A stretch of DNA of 64,000 nucleotides from contig NZ_VAHD01000001.1 of the NCBI RefSeq assembly GCF_005876985.1, positions 248,001 through 312,000 of the forward strand, given 5' to 3'. Positions 1,788 through 61,374 of this stretch are shown one piece after another. The notes beneath the pieces were generated by a model. The model did not search any database. It saw only the letters and a list, made by a program, of their open reading frames with translations, and was not told where the DNA came from. This stretch comes from Rhodoferax bucti (GTDB lineage: Bacteria > Pseudomonadota > Gammaproteobacteria > Burkholderiales > Burkholderiaceae_C). Position numbers and translations under genes: made by a program. Each line of letters starts with the position of its first letter. The stretch's first letter is position 1.

Positions 1788-3652
1788 GGAAGTTGCTCCA
1801 GTTCCGTGCCGCTGGAGAGCGCCAGCTCTTTCACCGCGTCACAAAACACCTGCGCGCGGTGCTCGTAGTTCTTGAACATGTCGAAGCTGGCGCAGGCGGG
1901 GGACATCAGCACCGCATCGCCCGCGTGGGCTTTGGCGTTGGCCAGCGTCACGGCTGCGGCCATGCTGTCGGCATCCACCAAAGGAATGCCGGTGTGCTCC
2001 AGGGCCGCGCGGATCAGCGGGGCGTCCCGCCCGATCAGCACCACGGCCCGCACATAGCGCTCCACCGGTGCGGCCAAGGGGGCAAAGTCCTGCCCCTTGC
2101 CCTCGCCGCCCAGGATGACCACGATGCGGCGGTCCGCGCCCAAGCCCTGCAAAGCAGCCACGGTGGCGCCCACATTGGTGCCCTTGCTGTCGTCAAAGAA
2201 CTCCACGTCATTGAGGATGCCGATGGGCTCCACGCGGTGCGGCTCGCCACGGTACTCGCGCAGGCCATACAAGATAGGCGCCAGCGCACAGCCGGCGGAA
2301 GCGCACAGGGCCAAAGCCGCCAGAGCGTTGCTCGCGTTGTGGCGCCCACGGATGCGCAGGGCGTCAGCAGGCATCAGGCGCTGGATGTGGATTTCTTCCT
2401 CTTCGTCCTTGCGGCGCTTGCGGGTTTCGTCAGCTTCCAGCGCGCGCACCAGCCAGACCATACCGTTGACTTCCTCAATACCGAAGTCGCCGGGGCGTTG
2501 GGGCATGTCGGTGCCGAAGGAGATGTAGGCACGCTCTTGCGGTTTTTGCAGGCGCACACGCACCGGCTCCGGGCGCATGGCCATGACGGTAGCGTCTTCG
2601 CGGTTGAGCACCATCATGCCGCGCTGGCCAAAGATACGGGCCTTGGCACCGGCGTAGGCTTGCATGCTGCCGTGCCAGTCAAGATGGTCTTGCGTGACGT
2701 TGAGCACCACAGCAGCGGTCGGCTCGAAGCTGCCGGCCGCATCCAGCTGGAAGCTGGAAAGCTCTAGCACCCAGACTTCCGGCAAGGTATCCGCCTCGAG
2801 GTGCTGTGTCAGCGTGTCGAGCAGCGTGGGGCCGATGTTGCCGGCCACCGCAACGGTTTTGCCCGCATGGGCAATCAGTTGGCCCGTCAGCGAGGTGACG
2901 GTGGTTTTGCCATTGGTGCCCGTGATTGCGAGCACCGCAGGCTGGTAGCCCCGTACCGTGCGCAGCGCATCCAGCGCCATGGAATACAAGCTTAATTCGC
3001 CTCCAGCGCTCACACCGCTTGCGCGAGCAGCTATCAAAACAGGAGCAATCTCCTCAGGACTCAGCCCGGGTGACCGGTACACTCCGTGCAGTGCTTGGCC
3101 CTCGACCAGACTTGCGGCAAATGCGCCAGCAACAAAACGCACCTGCGGAAGCTCCCGCTGCAATACGGCCAGCTGGGGTGGCGCTTCGCGGGTATCAGCA
3201 ACGGTGACCTGGGCAGCACCTGTCAACACGCACCAGCGTGCCATCGCCAGGCCGGAAGCACCCAGCCCGAGAATCAATACGTTCTGGCCGGCCAAAGGAG
3301 CAAATACCTGCTCGGCCGCAGGCGCCTCCTCGGCTACCGTGTTGTCTTCCGCGACCGCTTGAGCAGCTTCCACCACCACGGCCTCGGCAGCCTCCGTTTT
3401 TTCCGCTTGGGTTTCCGCAAAAATGCGGGCCACAAATGCTGCGGCCTCCTGGGCGGCAGTCAGCGTAGTGGGCAGCGCCTTGGCAGCAGCCGGAGCACCA
3501 GCTCCCCCCTCGCCTGCGGTTGCAGGCACGGCATCCACGGCCGGCACCCCTGGCTGAACCTCGTCCGCCAAGGAGGCGTGTTGCACCACACCGGCGTCAT
3601 CGGCCGGTGTCTGCAGGGGTTCTGGCGGGAGGTGCTGCTCGGGGGTGTTCAT
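1784..3652 (-). CDS. murD: MurD with long acidic N-terminal extension
   Basis: UDP-MurNAc-L-alanine:D-glutamate ligase, a cytoplasmic ATP-dependent step of peptidoglycan precursor synthesis. The start ATG at 3652 overlaps the mraY stop (ATGA) and gives 622 residues. The core begins near residue 118 ([10 protein letters not shown]) and has the P-loop [10 protein letters not shown] and the late DDSKGTN motif. About 115 residues precede the core. They are rich in Ala, Glu and Pro and are absent from the usual roughly 440-residue enzyme. A second charged insert ([11 protein letters not shown]) lies in the middle domain. Residues 203-220 are encoded by a copy of the dispersed 54-bp repeat without obvious lengthening of the domain. 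Confidence 0.95.
2993..3046 (-). repeat. Dispersed 54-bp element, copy A (inside murD)
   Basis: Reads on the minus strand from GCTCCTGTTTTGATAGC, then TGCTCGCGCA, ten variable bases, and GCGCTGGAGGC. It encodes murD residues 203-220 in frame 0 of the element (starting at GCT), the same frame as copy B. The left 17-mer matches the reverse complement of the left 17-mer of copies D and E at 16 of 17 positions. Confidence 0.85.
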
Positions 3653-17478: not shown

Positions 17479-18660
17479 CTAGCGGCGCATCACCACCAAG
17501 CCCTTGAGGTATTCGCCCTCGGGAAAGGCGATGGTCATCGGATGGTCCGGGGCGCCGCCCATGCGCTCGGTGATAAAGCCGTCCACCCCCGCATCCGAAC
17601 CCGCGCCGGCAATGATTTTGTGAAACAAGTCCGAGCTGATGCCACCGGAGCAGCTGTAGGTGAACAGCACGCCACCCGGCTCCAGCAACTTGAAGGCCAG
17701 GCGGTTGATGTCCTTGTAAGCCCGCGCCGCGCGCTCGGCGTGCGCCACCGTCGGCGCAAACTTGGGAGGATCCAGAATGATGGCGTCAAAGGTGCGCCCC
17801 TCGGCGGCGAAAGCGCGCAACGAGGCATTCACATCTGCATCCATGAAGGTGGTGCGCGCCGCATCAAAGCCATTCAGGGCGACGTTGGCCTTGGCTTTTT
17901 CGATAGCCGGGCCACTGGAATCGATCGAGGTCACGTGCCCGGCGCCGCCGGACAAAGCCGCCACCGAGAACCCGCCGGTGTAGCAGTAGCAGTTCAGCAC
18001 CCGCTGGAAACCGAGGCGGCGGGTGTACTGGGCAAATTTGTGCCGGCTGTCACGCTGGTCCAGATAAAAGCCGGTTTTGTGGCCTTCTGCGATGCTCAGG
18101 GCCAGTTTCCAGTCATGCTCGCGCAGCACCAGGTCCGTCGCCCCTTCGCCACGCAGCCAGCCGGTGGCCTCGGGCAAGCCCTCCAAGGCGCGGCTGCTGG
18201 CATCCGAGCGCTCGTACAGCTTGGTCAGCCCGGTGGCACTGAGCAAGGCATCCGCAATGGCGGGCTTCCACTTCTCCACACCGGCCGAGGTGAACTGCGC
18301 CACCAGCGTGTCACCGTAGCGGTCCACGATCAAACCGGGCAATCCATCCGACTCGCCGTGGATCAGGCGGACACCGTCGCTTTGTATGTCAAATCTGGCT
18401 CTGGCGCCTATAGCTTGTGCGCAAGCAGCTATAAAAAAGCTAGCATCAATGCGCTGCTTTTCATCAAAACTCCAGACACGCGCCCGGATCTTGGACTGAG
18501 GACTGAACGCCGCCCAACCCAGAAATGCCCCCTCGGCCGATTCGACGCGAACCGTCTCCCCGCTATCTCCGCCGCCTTTGGCGATGGCGGATTCAAAAAT
18601 CCAAGGGTGGCGGCGCAACAAGGAGCGCTCTTTACCGGCGCGCAATCGAATGGTTTTCAT
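17479..18660 (-). CDS. rlmI: RlmI-like 23S rRNA m5C methyltransferase
   Basis: Class I SAM-dependent RNA methyltransferase of 393 residues. An N-terminal PUA-type domain (RLRAGKERSLLRRHPWIFESAI) is followed by a Rossmann methyltransferase with VLNCYCYTGGFSVAA, ILDPPKFAP and FTYSCSGG. RlmI methylates C1962 of 23S rRNA in E. coli. ATG at 18660 matches the family start. Residues 73-90 are encoded by the dispersed 54-bp repeat (copy B). The segment between the two domains is about as long as in E. coli RlmI, so the repeat appears to replace rather than lengthen the native sequence. Confidence 0.9.
   Translation of the reverse strand: MKTIRLRAGKERSLLRRHPWIFESAIAKGGGDSGETVRVESAEGAFLGWAAFSPQSKIRARVWSFDEKQRIDASFFIAACAQAIGARARFDIQSDGVRLIHGESDGLPGLIVDRYGDTLVAQFTSAGVEKWKPAIADALLSATGLTKLYERSDASSRALEGLPEATGWLRGEGATDLVLREHDWKLALSIAEGHKTGFYLDQRDSRHKFAQYTRRLGFQRVLNCYCYTGGFSVAALSGGAGHVTSIDSSGPAIEKAKANVALNGFDAARTTFMDADVNASLRAFAAEGRTFDAIILDPPKFAPTVAHAERAARAYKDINRLAFKLLEPGGVLFTYSCSGGISSDLFHKIIAGAGSDAGVDGFITERMGGAPDHPMTIAFPEGEYLKGLVVMRR
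18391..18444 (-). repeat. Dispersed 54-bp element, copy B (inside rlmI-like gene)
   Basis: Minus-strand GCTAGCTTTTTTATAGC, then TGCTTGCGCA, ten variable bases, GCGCCAGAGCC. It is translated in the same element frame as copy A, giving IAACAQAIGAR against [11 protein letters not shown] in MurD. The stem pair 22/36 is T-A in this copy. Confidence 0.85.
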
Positions 18661-20628: not shown

Positions 20629-21498
20629 TTATTCGGGTAAATCAATTTCGCCACGGAAGACGGTGGTGGCGGGGCCGGTCATGAAAACAGAGGCGCCCAT
20701 GCCGTCCCAGGCAATGGTCAGCACCCCGCCACGGGTCTGCACATCCACACGTGCGTCCAGCAGGCCGAGACGGATACCGGCCACCACGGCCGCGCAGGCG
20801 CCCGTGCCACAGGCCAGCGTCTCGCCGACTCCGCGCTCGTACACCCGCAAGCGCACCTGGCTGCGGCTCACCACCTGCAGAAAGCCGACGTTCACCCCTT
20901 GGGTAAAGCGCGGGTTGGCCTGCACCTGCGGGCCCAACTCGGCGACGAGCGCAGCATCCACGTCCGCCACCAGCGTGACCGCATGAGGGTTGCCCATGGA
21001 TACCGTTGCTACCAAAAGAGGAGCTGCTTGCGCAGAATCCACGAGCGCCAGAGGCCAATTTCCCCATGATCCCATGGCTTGCAGACTCAGGCCACTGTCG
21101 TCAAAAGGAATGTCTGCCGGAGTGAATACCGGCCCGCCCATGTCCACCGTCACCCGGCCGTCGGAGGTAAGCAAGGGCTCGATCACGCCCTTCATGGTTT
21201 TGACGCGGATGCGGTCTTTGCCGGTCAGGCCCTGGTCGCGCACAAAGCGGGCGAAGCAGCGGGAGCCATTGCCGCACTGCTCGACCTCGTTGCCATCGGC
21301 GTTGTGAATCACGTATTCGAAGTCGATGCCCTCGGCGGGCGAGGGGCGCACCGTGAGAATCTGGTCGGCCCCCACGCCGAAGTGGCGATCGCCCAGAAAG
21401 CGGTAATGCGCAGGGGTCAGGCCCAAGCGACCCTTGGTTTCGTCGAGCACCACGAAGTCGTTGCCCGCGCCCTGCATTTTGGTGAACTGGATTCGCAT
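20629..21498 (-). CDS. dapF: DapF, diaminopimelate epimerase
   Basis: Converts LL- to meso-diaminopimelate for lysine and peptidoglycan synthesis. It has 289 residues, starting [17 protein letters not shown] as usual for the family. The catalytic cysteine pair is Cys75 (EQCGNGSR) and Cys230 (LACGTGAC). Two homologous halves are visible. Residues 146-164, just before the conserved VSMGNPHAV, are encoded by the dispersed 54-bp repeat in antisense orientation (copy C), in a part of the protein that varies among homologues. First gene of a dapF - DUF484 - xerC unit; the promoter must lie in the 37 bases shared with the divergent hydrolase gene. Confidence 0.96.
21008..21061 (+). repeat. Dispersed 54-bp element, copy C (inside dapF)
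   Basis: Plus-strand GCTACCAAAAGAGGAGC, then TGCTTGCGCA, ten variable bases, GCGCCAGAGGCCAATTT. It is antisense to dapF and read as ...[10 protein letters not shown], the same codon register as copies F, I and J. The stem pair 22/36 is a T-G wobble. Confidence 0.88.
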
Positions 21499-21535: not shown

Positions 21536-22501
21536 ATGGCCCGACCCACCCACCTTCTGCCCGGCGAACTCTCGCCGGCCGCCGCCTCGCTCATTGATGC
21601 CTGGCAAACCGACAGACCCGTCCCCCTGATGCGCCATGTGCTGCGCCTCACCGCCCCCAACCCCGGCGTGATGACAGGCCCCGGCACCAACAGCTACCTG
21701 GTGGGCGAACCCGCCACGGGCTACACCGTCATCGACCCCGGCCCCGCCGACGCCGACCACCTGCAGCGCCTGTGGCAGGCGGCTGCGTTTGAAGACGGCA
21801 GTGGCGGCAACATCCTCCGCATTGTGTGCACCCATTCGCACCCGGACCATTCGCCCGGCGCTGCACCGCTACAGGCCCTCTGCCAAGGCGGCCCGCCGAT
21901 TCTGGGCTTGCCCTCAGCGCCCACCGCACGCGCCGCCAGCGCGTTCACCCCGGACCGACCGCTATCAAATCAGGAGCTGCTGGCGCATATGCTGCCTGCG
22001 CCAGATGTCGAAAACGCACTCCAACCTGTGCACACCCTGCAGGTGATTTACACCCCCGGCCATGCGGCCAACCACGTGTGCCTGCTGCTGGAAGAAGACG
22101 GTCTGCTCTTCAGCGGCGACCACATCTTGAACGGCAGCACCACGGTCATCGACCCACCGGACGGCAACATGCGGGACTATCTGGATTCGCTGGACGCACT
22201 GGCCGCTGCCTGCAGCGACTACCAGGTGCAATACATCCTGCCCGCCCACGGCCATGTGATTGACGGCGCGAACGAGGCCATTACCAAGCTCAAAGCGCAC
22301 CGCCTGGCGCGCGAAGCCAAAATTGCTACTGTCATGCAAGCCAACCCCCAAGGGGGCTTGGATGACTGGCTGCCCCTGGCCTACGACGACGTGGACCCGC
22401 GCATTTGGCCCGTGGCCAAACGCTCCCTGCTGGCCCATGTAGAACGCATTTACGCCTTGGACAATCCGGGCAAACCCAAAAACCAAGAAGGCCAAGCATG
22501 A
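21536..22501 (+). CDS. Metallo-beta-lactamase-fold hydrolase (LACTB2-like)
   Basis: Protein of 321 residues with the zinc motif [10 protein letters not shown], an upstream [10 protein letters not shown] strand, a later [11 protein letters not shown] and [12 protein letters not shown], and a C-terminal helical part with LPAHGHV. It is closest in layout to the LACTB2/glyoxalase-II-like group; a nuclease or a hydrolase role is possible and the substrate is unknown. ATG at 21536 starts 37 bases from divergent dapF. Residues 142-160 come from the dispersed repeat (copy [10 protein letters not shown]). The stop overlaps the next gene (ATGA). Confidence 0.88.
21961..22014 (+). repeat. Dispersed 54-bp element, copy D (inside hydrolase gene)
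   Basis: Plus-strand GCTATCAAATCAGGAGC, then TGCTGGCGCA, ten variable bases, GCGCCAGATGTCGAAAA. It is translated one base off GCT as [18 protein letters not shown], the same register as copy E (LSNQELPAQSIRALEVEN). The stem pair 22/36 is G-C here. Confidence 0.88.
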
Positions 22502-25497: not shown

Positions 25498-27318
25498 ATG
25501 ATCCGCATCACCGAACTCAAACTCCCTCTCTCTGCCCTGCCCGTCGAAGAGCGCCGCGCTTCTGACGCACCTTCGGAAACCGAGGCCGACCGCGCGCCGG
25601 TGGCCCATCCGGTAGAGGCACTGAAGCGCTTGTGCGCACAGGCTTTGGGCATCGACGTCCACGCCATCGCGGACCTGCAGGTTTTCAAGCGCAGCTTTGA
25701 TGCCCGCAAAGTAGATTTGCTGGCGGTGTACATCGCAGACATCACCTTGACTGACGCCTCGCTGGAAAGCCGCCTGTTGGCCCAGCACGCCGACCACCCG
25801 CATATCGGGCCCACACCCGATATGGCCTACCGCTTTGTCGCGCAGGCCCCTGCCGATTTGCAGGAACGCCCGGTGGTGGTGGGCTTTGGCCCTTGCGGCA
25901 TGTTTGCGGCGCTGGTGCTGGCGCAGATGGGCTTCAAGCCCATCGTGCTGGAGCGCGGCAAAACGGTGCGCCAGCGCACCAAAGACACCTGGGGCCTGTG
26001 GCGCAAAAAGAACCTGAATCCCGAGAGCAACGTGCAGTTCGGCGAAGGCGGTGCCGGCACCTTCTCAGACGGCAAGCTGTACAGCCAGATCAAAGACCCG
26101 CGCTTTCTGGGCCGCAAGGTCATGCACGAGTTTGTGCAGCATGGCGCACCCTCGGAGATCTTGTACGAGGCGCACCCGCACATCGGCACCTTCAAACTGG
26201 TGAAGGTGGTGGAAGGTATCCGCGAGCAAATCATCGCGCTGGGCGGCGAGATCCGTTTTGAGCAGCGTGTCACGGACGTGGTGCTGGGCAAATCGCTATC
26301 AAATCAGGAGCTACCCGCGCAATCCATACGGGCGCTAGAGGTCGAAAACCTTATGAATGGAAGCCGCTACCAGCTACCGGCGAGCCACGTGATCATGGCG
26401 CTGGGCCACAGCTCGCGCGACACCTTTGCCATGCTCTACGAGCGTGGCGTGGCCATGCATGCCAAGCCGTTTTCGGTGGGTTTCCGCATCGAGCACCCGC
26501 AAAGCGTGATCGACCGTGCCCGCTGGGGTCGCCATGCGGGGCACCCGCTCTTGGGTGCGGCAGACTACAAACTAGTGCACCACGCGGCCAACGGGCGGGC
26601 GGTGTACAGCTTCTGCATGTGCCCGGGCGGCACGGTGGTGGCGGCCACCAGCGAGCCGGGGCGCGTAGTCACCAACGGCATGAGCCAGTACTCCCGCGCC
26701 GAGCGCAATGCCAACGCCGGCATGGTGGTGGGCATTGACCCACCCGACTACCCAGACGACCAAGCAGCAATGGTTCACGCCTTCGGCGAAGCGCAAGGCA
26801 AGCGCTATGCGGCAGAGGCCACCGCCATGAAGGCCCAAGACCCGAAAGCAGCACACCCCCTATCCGGCATTGCCCTGCAACGGCAACTGGAAAGCGGCGC
26901 CTACACCTTGGGTGGCAGCACCTACGAAGCACCCGGCCAGTTGGTAGGTGACTTCATTGCGGCCAAGCCCTCGAGCGAATTCGGCAGCGTCACGCCGTCG
27001 TACAAGCCGGGCGTGAAACTGGGCGACCTGGCCCCTGCCCTGCCCGCCTATGCGATTGACGCCATGCGCGAAGCGCTGCCGGTGTTCGGCCGCAAGATCA
27101 AGGGCTTTGACATGGCGGACGCGGTGCTCACGGGCGTGGAGACCCGCACCTCCAGCCCCATCAAAATCCCGCGCGGCGAAGACCTGCAGTGCACCAATGT
27201 GCGCGGCCTGTATCCGGCGGGCGAAGGCGCTTCTTACGCCGGCGGCATTCTGTCGGCGGGCGTGGACGGCATCAAAGTGGCCGAGGCGCTGGCGCTGGAC
27301 ATGCTCCAGCCACGTTAA
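25498..27318 (+). CDS. COG2509-type FAD-dependent oxidoreductase
   Basis: Flavoprotein of 606 residues. After about 110 N-terminal residues comes a dinucleotide-binding segment VVVGFGPCGMFAALVLAQMG, then GEGGAGTFSDGKLYS, a central substrate domain, and a closing FAD motif YPAGEGASYAGGILSAGVDG. This matches the large uncharacterised COG2509 dehydrogenases; no substrate is known. Residues 266-284 (LSNQELPAQSIRALEVEN) are encoded by the dispersed repeat, copy E. It begins 45 bases after cysK. Confidence 0.88.
   Translation: MIRITELKLPLSALPVEERRASDAPSETEADRAPVAHPVEALKRLCAQALGIDVHAIADLQVFKRSFDARKVDLLAVYIADITLTDASLESRLLAQHADHPHIGPTPDMAYRFVAQAPADLQERPVVVGFGPCGMFAALVLAQMGFKPIVLERGKTVRQRTKDTWGLWRKKNLNPESNVQFGEGGAGTFSDGKLYSQIKDPRFLGRKVMHEFVQHGAPSEILYEAHPHIGTFKLVKVVEGIREQIIALGGEIRFEQRVTDVVLGKSLSNQELPAQSIRALEVENLMNGSRYQLPASHVIMALGHSSRDTFAMLYERGVAMHAKPFSVGFRIEHPQSVIDRARWGRHAGHPLLGAADYKLVHHAANGRAVYSFCMCPGGTVVAATSEPGRVVTNGMSQYSRAERNANAGMVVGIDPPDYPDDQAAMVHAFGEAQGKRYAAEATAMKAQDPKAAHPLSGIALQRQLESGAYTLGGSTYEAPGQLVGDFIAAKPSSEFGSVTPSYKPGVKLGDLAPALPAYAIDAMREALPVFGRKIKGFDMADAVLTGVETRTSSPIKIPRGEDLQCTNVRGLYPAGEGASYAGGILSAGVDGIKVAEALALDMLQPR
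26295..26348 (+). repeat. Dispersed 54-bp element, copy E (inside flavoprotein gene)
   Basis: Plus-strand GCTATCAAATCAGGAGC (identical to copy D), then TACCCGCGCA, ten variable bases, GCGCTAGAGGTCGAAAA. Same reading register as copy D in an unrelated protein. The second hairpin has C-G at both 21/37 and 22/36, replacing T-A at 21/37 in most copies. Confidence 0.88.
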
Positions 27319-29751: not shown

Positions 29752-30507
29752 TCAACCGGGGCCCACGGGCTGCCGCGGCGCCCGGAACACGCTGGCATCG
29801 GCATAAAACGCGGGCGCCTCGTTCTCCGGCCACCAGCCGGGCACGCCCAGCACCGGCAAATGGGCAAAGGGCTTGGCCGCCAGCATGGGCGCGCTCAGGG
29901 TGTCCGCCAGCCACGCATCCATGTCCGCTATCGAATTCGTAGCTGCTTGCGCACGGAATACGTGCGCTGTGATCGGTTTTCGTGGGGAAACCAGCTTCTC
30001 CAGCAGGGCATGGCCAAACAGCACCAGCGTGGCCTCGTGCCACAACGGGCGCAGGGGGCCGAACAGGGCCTGCCAGTCCTTGGCGGCCAGCGCATCCCAC
30101 AAGGCATCAGGCGCCATGAGCAGGGCGGCGTTTTCGTCAAACACCGTCAGCGCATCCCGCGCCGGGCCACGCACCGGCTGAATGCCGGTCTGGGCGATTT
30201 GCTCAGCCTGCAGCCGGTTGAGCTTTTTCTTGGCCAGCGGAAAGTGCATCCAGCACAAGCCGTTGAAAAAGTCATGCAAACCATCCCGCGTGGGCACGCA
30301 GCCCGTATCAAAAATATGCTGCTCGTAGGCGGCGCCAACAGGCAGCTCAGCTTGGGGAATGAAGTGCACAGGCGCCATATCCGCTGCATTCAGGGCCTGC
30401 GCCACCGTGTGCCCGGCCTCCACCTGCGCGGCCAGCCCCTGCCCCACACCGCGCCAGGGCGCGAGCCAGGGCGCGGACCAGTCGATGGCCTCTAGACCAA
30501 ACGCCAC
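29752..30507 (-). CDS. DUF3025 family protein
   Basis: 251 residues, cytoplasmic, with the recognisable block [26 protein letters not shown] of the DUF3025 family. Function unknown. The start is a GTG at 30507 that overlaps the end of pyrC by 16 bases, so it is translationally coupled to it. Residues 176-194 ([16 protein letters not shown] region) are encoded by the antisense of dispersed repeat copy F, near the C-terminus. Confidence 0.85.
29927..29980 (+). repeat. Dispersed 54-bp element, copy F (inside DUF3025 gene)
   Basis: Plus-strand GCTATCGAATTCGTAGC, then TGCTTGCGCA, ten variable bases, GCGCTGTGATCGGTTTT. It is antisense to the host gene and uses the same codon register as copies C, I and J. 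GCGCACG and CGTGCGC form a perfect seven-pair stem. Confidence 0.85.
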
Positions 30508-34795: not shown

Positions 34796-36655
34796 TTATT
34801 CTCCGCTTTGCTGCAAGGCCCACATGGACGCGTAACGCCCTTGGGCCGCGAGCAATTCGGCATGGCTGCCGCGTTCGATGATGCGGCCCGCGTCCATGAC
34901 CAGAATCTCATGGGCATCGACCACCGTGGAGAGGCGGTGGGCAATCACCAGGGTGGTCTTGTTGCGCGACACGCCTTGCAACTCGGCCTGGATGGCGCGC
35001 TCGTTGGCACTGTCCAGCGCGCTGGTGGCTTCGTCAAAAATCATCACGGGCGGGTTCTTCAAGAGCGTGCGGGCAATCGCCACGCGCTGCTTCTCGCCGC
35101 CACTGAGCTTGAGGCCCCGCTCGCCCACCATGGTGTCGTAAGCCTTGGGCGCTGCGGCAATGAAGGCGTGGATGTGCGCGGCCTTGGCAGCCACCTCTAC
35201 CTCCGCGCGTGTGGCGCCGGGGCGGCCGTAGGCGATGTTGTATTCCACCGTGTCGTTGAACAACACCGTGTCCTGCGGCACGATGCCGATGGCTTGGCGC
35301 ACGCTGCTTTGCGTGACCTGCTTGATGTCTTGCCCTGCAATGGTGATGCGGCCCTGCTGCACGTCGTAAAAACGGAACAGCAGGCGCGCCAGCGTGGATT
35401 TGCCAGAGCCGCTGGGGCCGACCACGGCGACGGTCTTGCCGGCCGGAATCTCGAAGCTGATGCCATGCAGGATGGTGCGCGCCGTGGTGCCCGCAGCCGC
35501 AGCGCTGCCGGCCGGGTCGTAGCTGAAGGTGACATTCTCAAAACGCACGGCAGCATCGGCACCGCTGGCGGCCAGTTGCAAGGGCTTGGCGCCGGGTACA
35601 TCGGCAATCTCTCGCTCACGCTCCATCAGCGTGAACATCTTTTCCAGATCGGTCAGGCTCTGCTTGATCTCGCGGTAGATCACGCCCAAAAAGTTCAGCG
35701 GGATGTAGAGCTGGATCATGAAGGCGTTAACCATCACCAGATCACCCAGCGTCATGCGGCCGTCCACGACCCCCTGGGTGGCCCGCCACAGCATGGTGAC
35801 GAGCGCCGTGGCAATGATGAGTTGCTGTCCGGTGTTGAGCAGGGAGAGTGTGGTCTGGCTCTTGACGGCGGCGCGGCGGTAGCGCTCCAGGTTTTCGTCG
35901 TAGCGCTGCGCCTCGAACTCTTCGTTGTTGAAGTACTTCACCGTTTCGTAGTTCAGCAGCGAATCGATGGCGCGGCTGTGGGCCGTGCTGTCCATCTCGT
36001 TCATCTTCTTGCGGAACTGGGTGCGCCACTCGGTGACCGTGACGGTGAAAGCGATGTACACCACCAGCGCAATGCCGGTGATCCACGCAAACCAGACATC
36101 AAACTTGACCGCCAGCAGCGTGAGCACCAGCGTCACCTCGATCAAGGTGGGCACGATGCTGTAGAGCGAGTAGTTGATCAGCGAATGCACACCCCGTGTG
36201 CCGCGCTCGATGTCACGCGTCATGCCCCCGGTCTGGCGCTCCAGGTGAAAGCGCAGGCTCATGGCGTGCAAGTGCCGGAACACCTGCAGGCTGATCGAGC
36301 GCGCCGCACCCTCGGTGGCCTTGGCAAACACCAATTCGCGCAGCTCGCTGAACAGCGAAGTGCACAAGCGCAAGGCGCCGTAGCCCACCAGCAGAGCCAC
36401 CGGCACCACCAGCACGGCTGCGGCGCTGCCGGGCTTGATCGTCATCGCGTCCACCAGGTTTTTCAGCAGTAGCGGCACGCCCACGTTGGCGAGCTTGGCC
36501 CCCACCATGAAGGCCAGCGCGGCGATCACCCGCCACTTGTAGGCCCAGAGGTAGGGGAACAGGCGCTGCAGCGTGCCCCAATCGGAGTTGGAGGACGTGG
36601 ACGCAGCAGAAGCGTGCGCAGCAGGAGCTGTAGCGGGGAGACCGGAGGGGCGCAT
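34796..36655 (-). CDS. ATM1-type ABC exporter (permease-ATPase fusion)
   Basis: Half-transporter of 619 residues. A short Ala/Ser-rich start is followed by six membrane helices, then one nucleotide-binding domain with Walker A GPSGSGKST, the Q-loop, signature LSGGEKQRV and Walker B VMIFDEATSALD. The transmembrane part (NEMDSTAHSRAIDSLLNYETVKYFNNEEFEAQRY) is the ATM1/HMT1 signature of exporters of glutathione-metal or Fe-S-related cargo. ATG at 36655 chosen; a TTG three codons earlier exists. First gene of a unit with the unknown and hemerythrin genes. Confidence 0.92.
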   Translation of the reverse strand: MRPSGLPATAPAAHASAASTSSNSDWGTLQRLFPYLWAYKWRVIAALAFMVGAKLANVGVPLLLKNLVDAMTIKPGSAAAVLVVPVALLVGYGALRLCTSLFSELRELVFAKATEGAARSISLQVFRHLHAMSLRFHLERQTGGMTRDIERGTRGVHSLINYSLYSIVPTLIEVTLVLTLLAVKFDVWFAWITGIALVVYIAFTVTVTEWRTQFRKKMNEMDSTAHSRAIDSLLNYETVKYFNNEEFEAQRYDENLERYRRAAVKSQTTLSLLNTGQQLIIATALVTMLWRATQGVVDGRMTLGDLVMVNAFMIQLYIPLNFLGVIYREIKQSLTDLEKMFTLMEREREIADVPGAKPLQLAASGADAAVRFENVTFSYDPAGSAAAAGTTARTILHGISFEIPAGKTVAVVGPSGSGKSTLARLLFRFYDVQQGRITIAGQDIKQVTQSSVRQAIGIVPQDTVLFNDTVEYNIAYGRPGATRAEVEVAAKAAHIHAFIAAAPKAYDTMVGERGLKLSGGEKQRVAIARTLLKNPPVMIFDEATSALDSANERAIQAELQGVSRNKTTLVIAHRLSTVVDAHEILVMDAGRIIERGSHAELLAAQGRYASMWALQQSGE

Positions 36656-37112: not shown

Positions 37113-37113
37113 C

Positions 37114-37167
37114 GCTATTGATTTAATAGCTACTCGCGCATACTCCACATGCGCCAGAGGCCTAAAA
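37114..37167 (+). repeat. Dispersed 54-bp element, copy G (intergenic)
   Basis: GCTATTGATTTAATAGC, then TACTCGCGCA, ten variable bases, GCGCCAGAGGCC; starts directly after the thioesterase TAG. GCTATT/AATAGC is a perfect six-pair stem, and GCGCAT/ATGCGC is a second. It may end the thioesterase mRNA. Confidence 0.9.
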
Positions 37168-44819: not shown

Positions 44820-44829
44820 TTCAGCATCA

Positions 44830-44883
44830 AATCGCCTTCTAGCGCTCGCACAACAAGCGCGAGCAGCTATAAATTCAATAGCA
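44830..44883 (-). repeat. Dispersed 54-bp element, copy H (intergenic)
   Basis: Minus-strand GCTATTGAATTTATAGC, then TGCTCGCGCT, ten variable bases, GCGCTAGAAGG. Occupies nearly the whole 66-base gap between two convergent genes. GCTCGC/GCGAGC forms a perfect six-pair second stem. Confidence 0.9.
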
Positions 44884-48184: not shown

Positions 48185-49348
48185 TTAAGGGTTTGCGTGA
48201 GGGCGGGCCGGCACCGCGCGGGTTTCACCCACGGCCATGACAGAAAAGTGAGGCTCCGGCACCTGATGCGCGCGCCGCGCCAGGGCCAGGTCGATAGGCG
48301 GCTGGTCTAGCGGCTCATCCGTCAGCGCGAACGTGCCCCAGTGCATGCCCACACTGCGCTTGGCACCCAGGTCCAGATGCATTTGCACGGCTTCGTCCGG
48401 GTTGATGTGCTGCTCGCGCATGAACCAGCGCGGCGCATAGGCCCCGATACGCAAGAGGGCGATGTCAAAACCACCTCCCAGTGCCTCAGTCTGGCGCGTG
48501 GCCAGGCGCAGGCGGGTGTCGGCAAAGTCTTTGCTGTAGCCCGTGTCGCCGCCGAAGTACCAGTGCAAATCCCGCCCCAACACGGCCCAGCCGCCCCACA
48601 AGGTGGTGCTGCGGTCGGCCACGCCGCGAGCCGACCAGTGTTGCACGGGCGTAAGCACAAAGTCCACGCCGCGCACCGTGTGCTGCTGCCACCAATCCAG
48701 CTCCACCACGCTGTCGACTCCCAGCGCCGTGAACCAGGGCTTAAGCCCCAGGGGCACCAAAAACAAGGTGCGCCCGCCCTCTGCCACGGCCTTCTGGTGC
48801 AGGGCGACGATGCTGGCGCGGTCCAGGTGGTCGTAATGGTTGTGCGAGATGATGACCACGTCCACCGGCGGCAGGGCCTCCAGCGCCACGCCGGGCGCCA
48901 CCACCCGCCGGGGACCGAAGAGCTGCACCGGCGAGGCACGCTCGCTGAAGATGGGGTCGGTCAGCACATTGAGTCCACCGGCCTGCATCAGCAGGCTGGC
49001 GTGTCCGATCCAAGTCAAAGCCGGCGCCGAGACCGACTGCCCCGCCTGGCTGTCGGCAGGCGTGCGTTGGTAGGCCTGCAGACGTGCCAAATCGGGGGCC
49101 ACCCGCGGCGTGGGCGTCTGGGCCGGCTTGGGCAAGCCTTCTCGCCACGACTCCCACTGCCAGCGCACCAGGTCGGTAAAAGGCTTGTTCACCTCACCCA
49201 CGTAGTGGTTGCGAAAGCCGTCCGGCGTGTGGTGCGGCTTGCTGGGGTCGTAGTAGGGGTTGGCTGCCGCCAGTATCGGGGCGCAAATCGCTATCAAAAC
49301 AATAGCTACTCGCACATACCTCACGAGCGCTAGAGGCCTATTTGGCAT
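48185..49348 (-). CDS. Exported metallo-beta-lactamase-fold hydrolase (COG2220)
   Basis: 387 residues from ATG at 49348, with AAGGA nine bases upstream. A signal peptide (RYVRVAIVLIAICAPILAAA) leads to a mature domain with WIGHASLLMQ, the zinc motif SHNHYDHLD, GGDTGYSKDF and MHWGTFAL, resembling UlaG/NAPE-phospholipase-D-like enzymes. Substrate unknown. Residues 2-20, including the basic n-region and most of the hydrophobic core, are encoded by antisense dispersed-repeat copy I. Confidence 0.87.
   Translation of the reverse strand: MPNRPLALVRYVRVAIVLIAICAPILAAANPYYDPSKPHHTPDGFRNHYVGEVNKPFTDLVRWQWESWREGLPKPAQTPTPRVAPDLARLQAYQRTPADSQAGQSVSAPALTWIGHASLLMQAGGLNVLTDPIFSERASPVQLFGPRRVVAPGVALEALPPVDVVIISHNHYDHLDRASIVALHQKAVAEGGRTLFLVPLGLKPWFTALGVDSVVELDWWQQHTVRGVDFVLTPVQHWSARGVADRSTTLWGGWAVLGRDLHWYFGGDTGYSKDFADTRLRLATRQTEALGGGFDIALLRIGAYAPRWFMREQHINPDEAVQMHLDLGAKRSVGMHWGTFALTDEPLDQPPIDLALARRAHQVPEPHFSVMAVGETRAVPARPHANP
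49290..49343 (+). repeat. Dispersed 54-bp element, copy I (signal-peptide region of hydrolase)
   Basis: GCTATCAAAACAATAGC, then TACTCGCACA, ten variable bases, GCGCTAGAGGCCTATTT. Similarity to copy H may run about ten bases further (GGCATCAAA). Antisense to the host gene in the same register as copies C, F and J. Confidence 0.9.
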
Positions 49349-49367
49349 CAAAAATGATCCTTAAACC

Positions 49368-49472
49368 TTGCTGAAGTCGGGTTTGCGCTTTTAGCGAAAA
49401 CGCAGGCTCGCACTTCGTGCGCATCCTTCGGATACCGCCTTCAGACTTTGCTGAAGTCGGGTTTGCGCTTTT
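49368..49472. repeat. 25-bp direct repeat, 80 bp apart, duplicating the end of a hydratase gene
   Basis: The 25 bases at 49368-49392 recur exactly at 49448-49472. Both copies read KRKPDFSKV plus a stop on the minus strand; the upstream one ends the functional enoyl-CoA hydratase, the other is a non-coding remnant. Between them lie two small hairpins (GCAC-TTC-GTGC and ATCC-TTC-GGAT). Confidence 0.8.
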
Positions 49473-50205
49473 CCATGAACGCCGTGAAGGCTTCCTGAGC
49501 GGCCGGCTCACCGAGCATGCGGCCGAAGCTCACGGCTTCTTCATCGATGCGGGCCAGCACCTGCTCCATCTGCCCTTTTTTGAGCAAACGCTTGGTTTCC
49601 ACCAGGGAGGCCAGCGGCTTGGCTGCCAGCTTGCGGGCTTGCGTCTGGGCAATGCCGTTGGCCTCGGTGGGCGGCACGATGCGGTTGGCAAGGCCCACTT
49701 CTAGCGCGGCTTCAGCCATGAAGGGCTCACCCAGGAGCAAGGCCTCGGCAGCGCGGTGGTAGCCCATCATCTGGGGCACTAGCAGGCTGGAGGCGGCTTC
49801 GGGGCACAGGCCCAGGTTCACGAAGGGCATGGAGAAGGCCGCGTTGTCGCCGGCATAGACCAGGTCGCAGTGGAAAAGCATGGTGCTGCCAATGCCCACC
49901 GCCGGGCCGCACACGGCGGCAATGAGTGGCTTGGGGAAGGCCGCCAGCGCCCGCAAAAAGCGGAACACCGGCGCGTCCTGCGCCTTGGGCGGAGCGCCCA
50001 AAAAGTCGCCGATGTCGTTGCCGGCGCTGAACACAGTGGCATCGCCCTGGAACACCACCACACGCACCGCCGCGTCGTCGCGCGCTGCATTCAACGCATC
50101 GGCGCAGGCGGCATACATGGCCTGGGTGAAGGAGTTTTTCTTTTCCACCCGGTTCAGGGTGATGGTGGTGACACCGGCGTCGGTGTGGATCAGGATGTCT
50201 TGCAT
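49441..50205 (-). CDS. Enoyl-CoA hydratase/isomerase family protein
   Basis: 254 residues, crotonase fold. The oxyanion-hole loop DATVFSAGNDIGDF and AAVCGPAVGIGSTML are present, then CPEAASSLLVPQMMG; the C-terminus is short (ending KRKPDFSKV). Residues at the two usual catalytic glutamates are Gly/Ser and Glu, so an isomerase-type or hydratase activity are both possible. Lies 33 bases after the TesB-like thioesterase. Its 3' end is partly duplicated downstream. Confidence 0.9.
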   Translation of the reverse strand: MQDILIHTDAGVTTITLNRVEKKNSFTQAMYAACADALNAARDDAAVRVVVFQGDATVFSAGNDIGDFLGAPPKAQDAPVFRFLRALAAFPKPLIAAVCGPAVGIGSTMLFHCDLVYAGDNAAFSMPFVNLGLCPEAASSLLVPQMMGYHRAAEALLLGEPFMAEAALEVGLANRIVPPTEANGIAQTQARKLAAKPLASLVETKRLLKKGQMEQVLARIDEEAVSFGRMLGEPAAQEAFTAFMEKRKPDFSKV

Positions 50206-59193: not shown

Positions 59194-60615
59194 TTACGAG
59201 ACCGGGCCAGGTGGAAACTTGAGCCCGACACACAGGCCGCGCCCGTTGCTTCCGGGCTTGAGCTCCAACTGCGTGTGGTGGATATGGGCGATCTCGTTGG
59301 CAATGGCCAGCCCCAGGCCATTGCCTTCTACTGCCGTGCCAGGCACGCGGTAAAAGCGCTCCAGCACCCGGTGCTGCTCTGGCTCGGGCACACCGGGGCC
59401 ATCATCCTCCACCTCCAAAAACGCATGCCGGCCCTGCCCGCAGCGGATGGTGACATGGCCGCCCGCCGGGGTGTATTTGATGGCGTTGTCCACCAGGTTG
59501 ACCAACAGCTCGCGCAGCAGCCACTCCTGCCCGCTGATGTGTACTGGGCAGGCGTCCAGCCCCAGGTCAATCTGCTTGTCCATCGCCGCATCCAGCTGCG
59601 ACTCCAGCACCGCCTCACAAAGTTGCTGTAAATCGATGCGCTGCAGCGGCTGCACATTGGCGCTGCGCGCATCTGCCCGCGAGAGGGCCAACAACTGGTT
59701 GGCCAGCTGCGAGGTGCGGCGCGCCGCTTGCCGCAGGCGCAACACCTGATCCGCTCCTAAAGTAATAGCTGCTGGCGCATGATTTACGGGCGCTAGCGTG
59801 CTTTTTTTATCTGAAACCTGGGCATCAACCACCTGCGCCCACGCCTCCACCTGCGCCTGCAAACCTGCCAAAGGCGTGCGCAGCTGGTGGGCCGCATCCG
59901 CCACGAAGCGGGCCTGGCTCTCGGCTTGCGCGTTCACCATGCCAAACAGGCGGTTGAGCGACAGCACCAAGGGCCGTACCTCGTCCGGCGAGGCATCCGG
60001 GTCCAACGCAGACAGATCGCGCGGCGAGCGCCGCTCCACCGCGTCCCGCAACTCCAGCAAGGGGCGCAAACCGGTTTGCACCGCCCACTTCACCGCAAAA
60101 AAACCTGCCAGCGCCAGCAGCAGATTGGGCAACAACACGCTGAGCAGCAAACGCCGCAACCACTGCTGCCGGTAGTCGGACCCGTCCGCCAAACGGAGCA
60201 CCAGCTCCCCGGCCACGGTGTGCACCCGCTGGGCGACGATGCGGTAGGTGACGCCGCCGAACTCCTCGCTGCTGAACACCGGGTCCTGGGTGGTAGGCAG
60301 CGGGCCGGTGAGCCACTCCGCCCCCATGCGCAGGGTGTCATCCATGTTGGCGATGGAAAACGCCGACAAGCCCGCGCGACCGCTTAAAAACTCTTCGACC
60401 GGGGGGGCCGTCAACAGCACCAGTGGCGCAGTGGGCGTAGCGCCTCGGGCCACCACCGAATCCGCCAACAAGGGCACGAGGCCGAGCAGTTGGCGGTCTT
60501 GCTGCAGCGCAGCGCTGTCGGCCGAACGGTAGTCAAACCAGGCATTGAGCATGGCCAGCAACACCAAGGGGAGTAGCAACAGCAGCAATAGGCGCCGCTG
60601 CAGTCCGGTGAACAT
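59194..60615 (-). CDS. Sensor histidine kinase with repeat inserted in the DHp domain
   Basis: 473 residues. Two membrane helices (about 5-27 and 154-177) enclose a sensor domain; then HAMP-like segment, H-box with His243 (FVADAAHQLRTPLAG), and the ATPase domain with N-box NLVDNAIKYTP, DDGPGVP and GNGLGLAIA. It resembles QseC/TctE kinases. Residues 270-288 (KKSTLAPVNHAPAAITLGA) come from dispersed-repeat copy J and lie in the loop between the two DHp helices. Paired with the response regulator 16 bases upstream. Confidence 0.92.
   Translation of the reverse strand: MFTGLQRRLLLLLLLPLVLLAMLNAWFDYRSADSAALQQDRQLLGLVPLLADSVVARGATPTAPLVLLTAPPVEEFLSGRAGLSAFSIANMDDTLRMGAEWLTGPLPTTQDPVFSSEEFGGVTYRIVAQRVHTVAGELVLRLADGSDYRQQWLRRLLLSVLLPNLLLALAGFFAVKWAVQTGLRPLLELRDAVERRSPRDLSALDPDASPDEVRPLVLSLNRLFGMVNAQAESQARFVADAAHQLRTPLAGLQAQVEAWAQVVDAQVSDKKSTLAPVNHAPAAITLGADQVLRLRQAARRTSQLANQLLALSRADARSANVQPLQRIDLQQLCEAVLESQLDAAMDKQIDLGLDACPVHISGQEWLLRELLVNLVDNAIKYTPAGGHVTIRCGQGRHAFLEVEDDGPGVPEPEQHRVLERFYRVPGTAVEGNGLGLAIANEIAHIHHTQLELKPGSNGRGLCVGLKFPPGPVS
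59753..59806 (+). repeat. Dispersed 54-bp element, copy J (inside histidine kinase)
   Basis: GCTCCTAAAGTAATAGC, then TGCTGGCGCA, ten variable bases, GCGCTAGCGTGCTTTTT. Antisense to the kinase gene, same register as copies C, F and I. GCTGGCGC/GCGCTAGC can form eight pairs with one wobble. Confidence 0.85.
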
Positions 60616-61318: not shown

Positions 61319-61320
61319 GA

Positions 61321-61374
61321 AATCCCTCGTTAGCGCTTGATTTGTATGCGCAAGCAGCTATCAAATCAATAGCA
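61321..61374 (-). repeat. Dispersed 54-bp element, copy K (intergenic)
   Basis: Minus-strand GCTATTGATTTGATAGC, then TGCTTGCGCA, ten variable bases, GCGCTAACGAGGGATTT. Fills the gap between the response regulator and argB. Left 17-mer is 16/17 identical to the reverse complement of copy I; pair 22/36 is T-A. Confidence 0.88.

Follow-up and report, generated by a model that had tools for sequence, protein, structure and literature searches.

In Rhodoferax bucti, a dispersed element of about 66 nt supplies the start codon and the first 20 residues of a putatively exported hydrolase, encoded in the 64,000-nucleotide stretch analysed here (contig NZ_VAHD01000001.1, positions 248,001 to 312,000; hereafter the window). 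We consider it probable, at roughly 70%, that this copy of the element (copy I) is an old insertion that rewrote the signal peptide of an already exported hydrolase by capturing its start codon. The element, ~66 nt long, would have entered long ago at the 5' end of a gene most likely already coding for an exported hydrolase and, being open in antisense, where basic residues are followed by a run rich in Ala, Val, Ile, and Leu, it would have replaced the n-region and the hydrophobic core. With a start codon in the element tail and a Shine-Dalgarno sequence just outside, the former 5' coding part would have been left untranslated, and the ancestral c-region, A-x-A cleavage site included, would have been retained. 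Like events appear to have affected no fewer than eight further proteins of this genome that are probably exported, with the element in either orientation (see below).

The hydrolase (48185–49348, minus strand, 387 aa) is a metallo-beta-lactamase (MBL)-fold protein (PF12706, E 2.4e-34) whose closest solved structure is NAPE-PLD (PDB 4qn9, E 4.2e-74). An H-N-H-x-D-H motif, invariant in the 16 rows of its alignment, fits the H-x-H-x-D-H motif of the MBL domain, so that the protein is a NAPE-PLD-like MBL hydrolase by predicted activity. The 55-nt core of copy I (49289–49343, plus strand) reads in antisense NRPLALVRYVRVAIVLIA, which is residues 3–20 of the hydrolase. The element is conserved past column 55 to about column 66, and this tail (columns 56–66, 49344–49354, plus strand; as judged from 190 copies) includes the start codon, read in antisense. 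The ATG (49346–49348, minus strand) occupies columns 58–60, in the same alignment column in three related genomes (G001, G011, and G014; G and L numbers are our own handles for genomes and sequences), and it therefore lies within the element, the coded residues being 1–20. The sequence-only reading had been right that the antisense of copy I encodes the N-terminus, and its range of residues 2–20 has been corrected here. It had also placed the Shine-Dalgarno AAGGA outside the element, as we find (49358–49362, minus strand, 9 nt from the ATG, the conserved tail ending at about 49354), and had attributed to the element the basic region and most of the hydrophobic core, which agrees with our rule-based prediction, the start now being added to them. 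The predicted Sec signal peptide covers residues 1–29 (49262–49348, minus strand), with cleavage expected between AAA and NPYY according to a home-made rule and the alignment of orthologues. By the same rule it has a basic n-region, a mean Kyte-Doolittle value of 3.53 over nine core residues and A-A-A before the Asn, and is a good candidate for directing the export of the hydrolase and for being cleaved off.

Copy I is a near-consensus member of a large family. It scored 64.8 bits (E 7.1e-16, 464 kb searched) against covariance model R1, which was trained on the 11 full-length copies that the window holds, copy I among them; the 73 matches in the 464 kb nearly all span the model, with no length change. 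A position matrix, built from 67 copies in a 464-kb part of the genome sample, was applied to 1.204 Mb (G000, about a third of the genome: the window, L111–L130, and L149–L185) and found 199 copies at ≥15 bits. No copy even at ≥8 bits was found in either the reversed or the complemented sequence, so the family is not due to chance. Conservation runs from about column -1 to column 66 in 190 aligned copies, giving the length of ~66 nt. Extrapolating from the sample there would be about 600 copies per genome; a covariance search of the whole genome gave at least 150 matches, among the best 150 of 4134 candidates. Among 60 genomes sampled from the bacterial family, our own included, 11 had matches at E ≤1e-10. 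According to home-made gene calls (1045 genes in the sample), 91 of the 199 copies are intergenic, 78 lie within genes, 23 over a gene 3' end, and seven over a 5' end, with a density per 10 kb of 8.6 between genes vs. 0.8 in genes. Of the internal copies, 64/78 use just two frames, split evenly between sense +1 and antisense +1 (32 each), and the hydrolase uses the antisense one.

The recurrence of the arrangement is seen in nine genes of the 1.2 Mb, hydrolase included, that carry element-made predicted signal peptides. A dihaem cytochrome c (DHC, PF09626), a TraB/GumN protein (PF01963), and an 81-codon small gene use the antisense frame, and a cupredoxin (copper-binding PF00127), an M14 peptidase (PF00246), an SLT protein (PF01464), an MltB-type transglycosylase (SLT_2, PF13406), and a small lipoprotein use the sense frame. 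Pfam domains were found in six of the eight genes other than the hydrolase and in neither of the two small ones. The ABC_trans_aux lipoprotein at C1b 185565 is a probable tenth case. Six of the eight genes were compared with relatives (23 + 15 loci), and five of these keep the element in other species, at ≥15 bits and at or near the same start (cupredoxin 3/8 loci, DHC 3/7, M14 peptidase 5/6, SLT protein 4/5, MltB-type 5/8); for TraB, no in-frame element was present in four loci of relatives. One of the TraB matches (L211 in G014, 31% identity), whose element lies close to the aligned start but in a frame containing a stop, was not counted. For each of the six genes at least one element-free homologue appeared signal-bearing by eye, as did 16 of the 17 element-free loci overall, some weakly (MltB-type in G083), the exception being a distant TraB match in G011. 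Whether or not they contain the element, the signal peptides have similar lengths, which suggests that the start codon was moved and not that ~20 residues were added. A separate observation is a cytosolic-looking 458-aa protein near G000:C3 298150, presumably similar to the GTPase CysN, whose N-terminus is made by the element.

Hydrolase matches were found in 50 congeneric genomes besides our own, of which the best complete 15 were aligned, leaving out G059 (split by contig ends), 34 weaker or partial matches, and second paralogues (e.g., in G014 and G040). With an unchanged offset of +5 nt, counted from aligned residue 1, the element occurs in G001 (52.4 bits), G011 (45.0 bits), G014 (56.1 bits), G062 (34.8 bits) and, in degenerate form, G032 (14.6 bits), so that six genomes share the position, our own included; the 12 other hydrolase loci of the 17 gave -39.6 to -57.8 bits with the matrix, and 498 null windows ≤ -11.9. 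All ten element-free congeners have, by eye, a hydrophobic N-terminus that ends in A-x-A or a near form, or a lipobox (G012), and the A-x-A end precedes the conserved Asn, at the same place as in our hydrolase. These signal-like N-termini are also similar in length, mostly 25 residues without the element vs. 28–29 with it. It had been suggested from the sequence alone that a formerly cytosolic or differently started protein may have acquired export through the element, and that orthologues lacking the element could decide the matter; their N-termini, signal-like in 10/10 cases by eye and in 5/10 by a strict home-made rule, largely contradict this. The strict rule was also passed by five of the six element-bearing hydrolases and by 6/14 further relatives from other genomes. 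Among 25 farther relatives inspected by eye, many have a lipobox or a signal-like start, and others begin at or beyond the conserved NPYY region. Export thus seems to be general in a clade of 14 rows (see below) and to vary across the wide hydrolase family, and a de novo gain of export may have taken place deeper in the tree, where some distant relatives are apparently cytosolic.

A hydrolase tree of 30 rows was built leaving out the first 39 residues. In this tree the earliest branch of the 14-row clade is G032, and G002, which has no element at the hydrolase, is the sister of four close species. Element loads were counted as matches at E 1e-6, with the best ≤150 candidates scored per genome, and those outside our own genome may be too low, the model having been trained on the window and several genomes of the element-poor clade being incomplete (68–80%). 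Among the matches listed, there were at least 150 in G001, 149 in G014, 149 in G040, 141 in G011, 125 in G002, 101 in G062, 25 in G012, nine in G032, two in G083, and one in G036, with 0 matches at this threshold in G054, G056, G075, G085, and G092. The hydrolase copy is recognisable in G001, G011, G014, and G062, with their 101 to at least 150 listed matches, and the family is nearly gone, on the same count, in G032 (9; copy degenerate) and in a clade of seven rows (0–2 each; copy absent). In a more distant relative, a near-consensus element (L018, 3549–3603, 65.5 bits) stands directly 3' of the hydrolase gene.

Several results weigh against an old insertion into the gene of an exported protein. 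The five element-bearing hydrolases as one clade were rejected by the approximately unbiased (AU) test (p 0.006; p 0.017 with G032), so losses or independent gains have to be assumed. A single old insertion, later lost in G002 and in the seven-row clade, would fit best, because the offset is identical among the element-bearing loci, although the tree alone allows separate gains. The load of the genome is not the whole story either, as the element-rich G002 and G040 (125 and 149 matches listed) have no hydrolase copy. The strict signal rule was passed by only five of the ten element-free congeners and by 11/24 of all element-free relatives, and the N-terminus of G032 fails it. No empty site was found in the syntenic stretches of G001, G011, and G014, where neither the insertion, nor the inserted length, nor any deletion was seen. 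Elements at N-termini coincide with signal peptides in 9/16 cases vs. 188/1045 genes (p 6e-4), a comparison biased by the choice of start; with called starts only, the figure is 4/16 (p 0.15), so that the enrichment is not firmly shown. One of the nine positives (C1b 39307) was dropped from the cases, being a rule match in which the called gene starts downstream, and the M14 and MltB-type genes, which are not among these positives, were identified separately. Finally, when copies sharing a frame are compared, those in signal peptides exceed the internal ones in hydrophobicity (antisense 4 vs. 30, p 0.004; sense 5 vs. 31, p 0.012), a result that is in part circular because looking signal-like was how the cases had been chosen.

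A rival account is passive tolerance, in which nearly any hydrophobic stretch will serve in a signal peptide, insertions there survive for that reason, and the element adds nothing special. Such tolerance agrees with start-codon capture on the event and differs on the cause, and we regard it as a real contender, if somewhat short of an even chance. Besides the enrichment that is not firmly shown, it is favoured by the first 75 nt of called genes holding nine copies (1.15 per 10 kb, hardly above the 0.86 of gene interiors) and by the variable columns of copy I diverging like those of intergenic copies (identity 0.57 vs. 0.55); the greater hydrophobicity of the signal-peptide copies speaks against it, with the reservation already given on how they were picked. 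A second alternative is that a cytosolic hydrolase did gain export from the element and that the signal peptides of element-free relatives are eroded descendants of the same insertion. The element in the earliest-branching G032 makes erosion in G002 and the seven-row clade conceivable, and outside the clade there are apparently cytosolic relatives, both close (L004 and L008) and farther (L010, L012, L016, L019, and L028). However, nearby outgroups look exported (G040 with a signal peptide by rule, L003, L006, and G012 with a lipobox by rule), and the other six genes have element-free homologues that look signal-bearing, as described above, which makes this history improbable. Least credible is a misassigned start, with translation from a GTG within the element (residue 9 or 12) and the ATG unused, as favoured by our home-made gene caller (start at element position +28), given that G001, G011, and G014 have the ATG in an equivalent position, that the Shine-Dalgarno fits it, and that even from a GTG the element would code for the hydrophobic core.

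Regarding the nature of the element, a hairpin RNA was considered and rejected: a two-stem fold pairs in 90.1% (11 copies) and 88.9% (73 copies) of the cells, with covariation not above shuffles. The strongest dependences between columns are those of near neighbours, farther pairs being weak and without clear excess of pairing, and at the Rfam gathering threshold only RNase P and a tRNA matched in the window. As for the traits of a MITE, namely terminal inverted repeats and a target-site duplication, 8/20 terminal consensus positions match, and direct repeats flank at best 13% (2 nt) or 6% (3 nt) of the copies over all the boundaries tried, with no empty site available. A gene of the RAYT-type Y1 transposase family (PF01797) was present in 11/11 genomes, element-rich and element-poor alike, and these comparisons gave no clear link to a transposase. 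Recent mobility was likewise discarded, as 25 of the 26 copies with both flanks alignable in the syntenic stretches of G001, G011, and G014 (34 copies, eight without one or both flanks) coincide with a copy in the window; a G011 copy corresponds to about window position 34877, where the window has none.

In 25 orthologous pairs, the conserved columns changed less than the variable ones and than the mean of the flanks. Identities were 0.92 in conserved vs. 0.75 in variable columns for internal copies (16 pairs; flanks 0.74 and 0.76), 0.83 vs. 0.55 for intergenic copies (six pairs; flanks 0.45 and 0.46), and 0.91 vs. 0.57 for copy I (three pairs; flanks 0.76 and 0.33), with the caveats that conserved columns were defined on these same copies and that gene conversion among copies could mimic slower change. 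Constraint beyond coding seems to hold the element in all contexts. From this difference and from the pattern of loads among genomes, we tentatively propose that the element may be a functional DNA site of fixed length, e.g., a protein-bound site organising the chromosome, selected at orthologous places whatever the context; this is a possibility that we would rate below even odds.

The other ten copies of the window illustrate these contexts. Three are in called open reading frames (ORFs) in antisense frame +1, that of the hydrolase signal peptide, all on the plus strand (21007–21061 in a 290-aa ORF, 29926–29980 in one of 252 aa, and 59752–59806 in one of 474 aa), and further copies lie in ORFs of 623 aa (2993–3047, minus), 394 aa (18391–18445, minus), 322 aa (21960–22014, plus), and 607 aa (26294–26348, plus). 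Two are intergenic (37113–37167, plus; 44829–44883, minus), and one (61320–61374, minus) takes up almost the whole space separating two called genes, which are 1 and 4 nt away. This last copy and that at 2993–3047, both in sense orientation, have GAGG just ahead of an ATG, and the element may there provide the Shine-Dalgarno. Several of the 23 copies overlapping gene 3' ends in the sample seem to provide the stop codon, within the first 17 columns of the element. Next to the hydrolase, a gene that we take to be enoyl-CoA-hydratase-like (49441–50205, minus strand) has its 3' end tandemly duplicated (49365–49392 and 49445–49472; 96% of 28 nt, 52-nt spacer) between itself and the hydrolase, and more copies of this duplication are found in G001 (L082).

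REP elements with RAYT transposases are short, palindrome-bearing repeats of high copy number. The Rhodoferax element resembles them as a short, palindrome-bearing repeat in many copies in a genome that has a PF01797 gene; unlike them, it has 78/199 copies within called genes, and PF01797 is also present in genomes with 0–2 element matches. The closest precedents, as far as their published descriptions go, are the Rickettsia palindromic elements and the Yersinia RU-2 element in YPO1552. The former are also dispersed between and within protein genes and read in frame (PMC2229807), as is predicted for the 78 of 199 internal copies here, but are described as 105–146 bp long with long stem-loops and terminal inverted repeats (PMC2229807), whereas the Rhodoferax element has ~66 nt and no covarying stem. 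In the case of RU-2/YPAL, homologues of YPO1552 in other genera are reported to carry predicted signal peptides that bear no relation to the repeat (Delihas, 2007; PMC2759123). That element is described as 168 bp long and as present at a few loci, many being small ORFs (PMC2759123); ours differs in being ~66 nt long, in making signal peptides in nine genes within a third of the genome, in that 6/8 of the others belong to known protein families, and in being kept in other species in 5/6 of the genes compared. A 2017 motif survey lists for Polaromonas naphthalenivorans the pair ATAGCT(N)22CAAAAG with 125 copies, 18 in genes, and gives Rhodoferax ferrireducens the most motif pairs, 140 (PMC5217627). 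By our own comparison with that survey, ATAGCT and a C after 22 bases would match columns 14–19 and 42 of the element. The spaced motifs of the survey probably represent this family or a closely related one; the pairs are reported as statistical ones, without a link to signal peptides in the survey's motif description (PMC5217627). The exact Polaromonas pattern matched 0/215 loci, and six literal fragments of the element matched, in the open-licence literature, only an integron and a fungal study, taken as chance. Within that literature, the description of the element family and its recurrent and conserved employment as signal peptides seem to be new.

Signal peptides are fast-evolving sequences, and it is seldom possible to trace where they came from. 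In the nine genes of this genome sample, the part that was replaced can be recognised by its repeat, which related species show intact, degenerate, or not at all, so that the replacement of a signal by repetitive DNA can be followed stepwise. Start codons, internal peptides, export signals, and probably stop codons as well all come from one short element in a single genome. If the element is indeed a DNA site, signal peptides in these bacteria would have to satisfy two constraints at once, and decay of the site family in a lineage would remove the site from the signal peptide without ending export.
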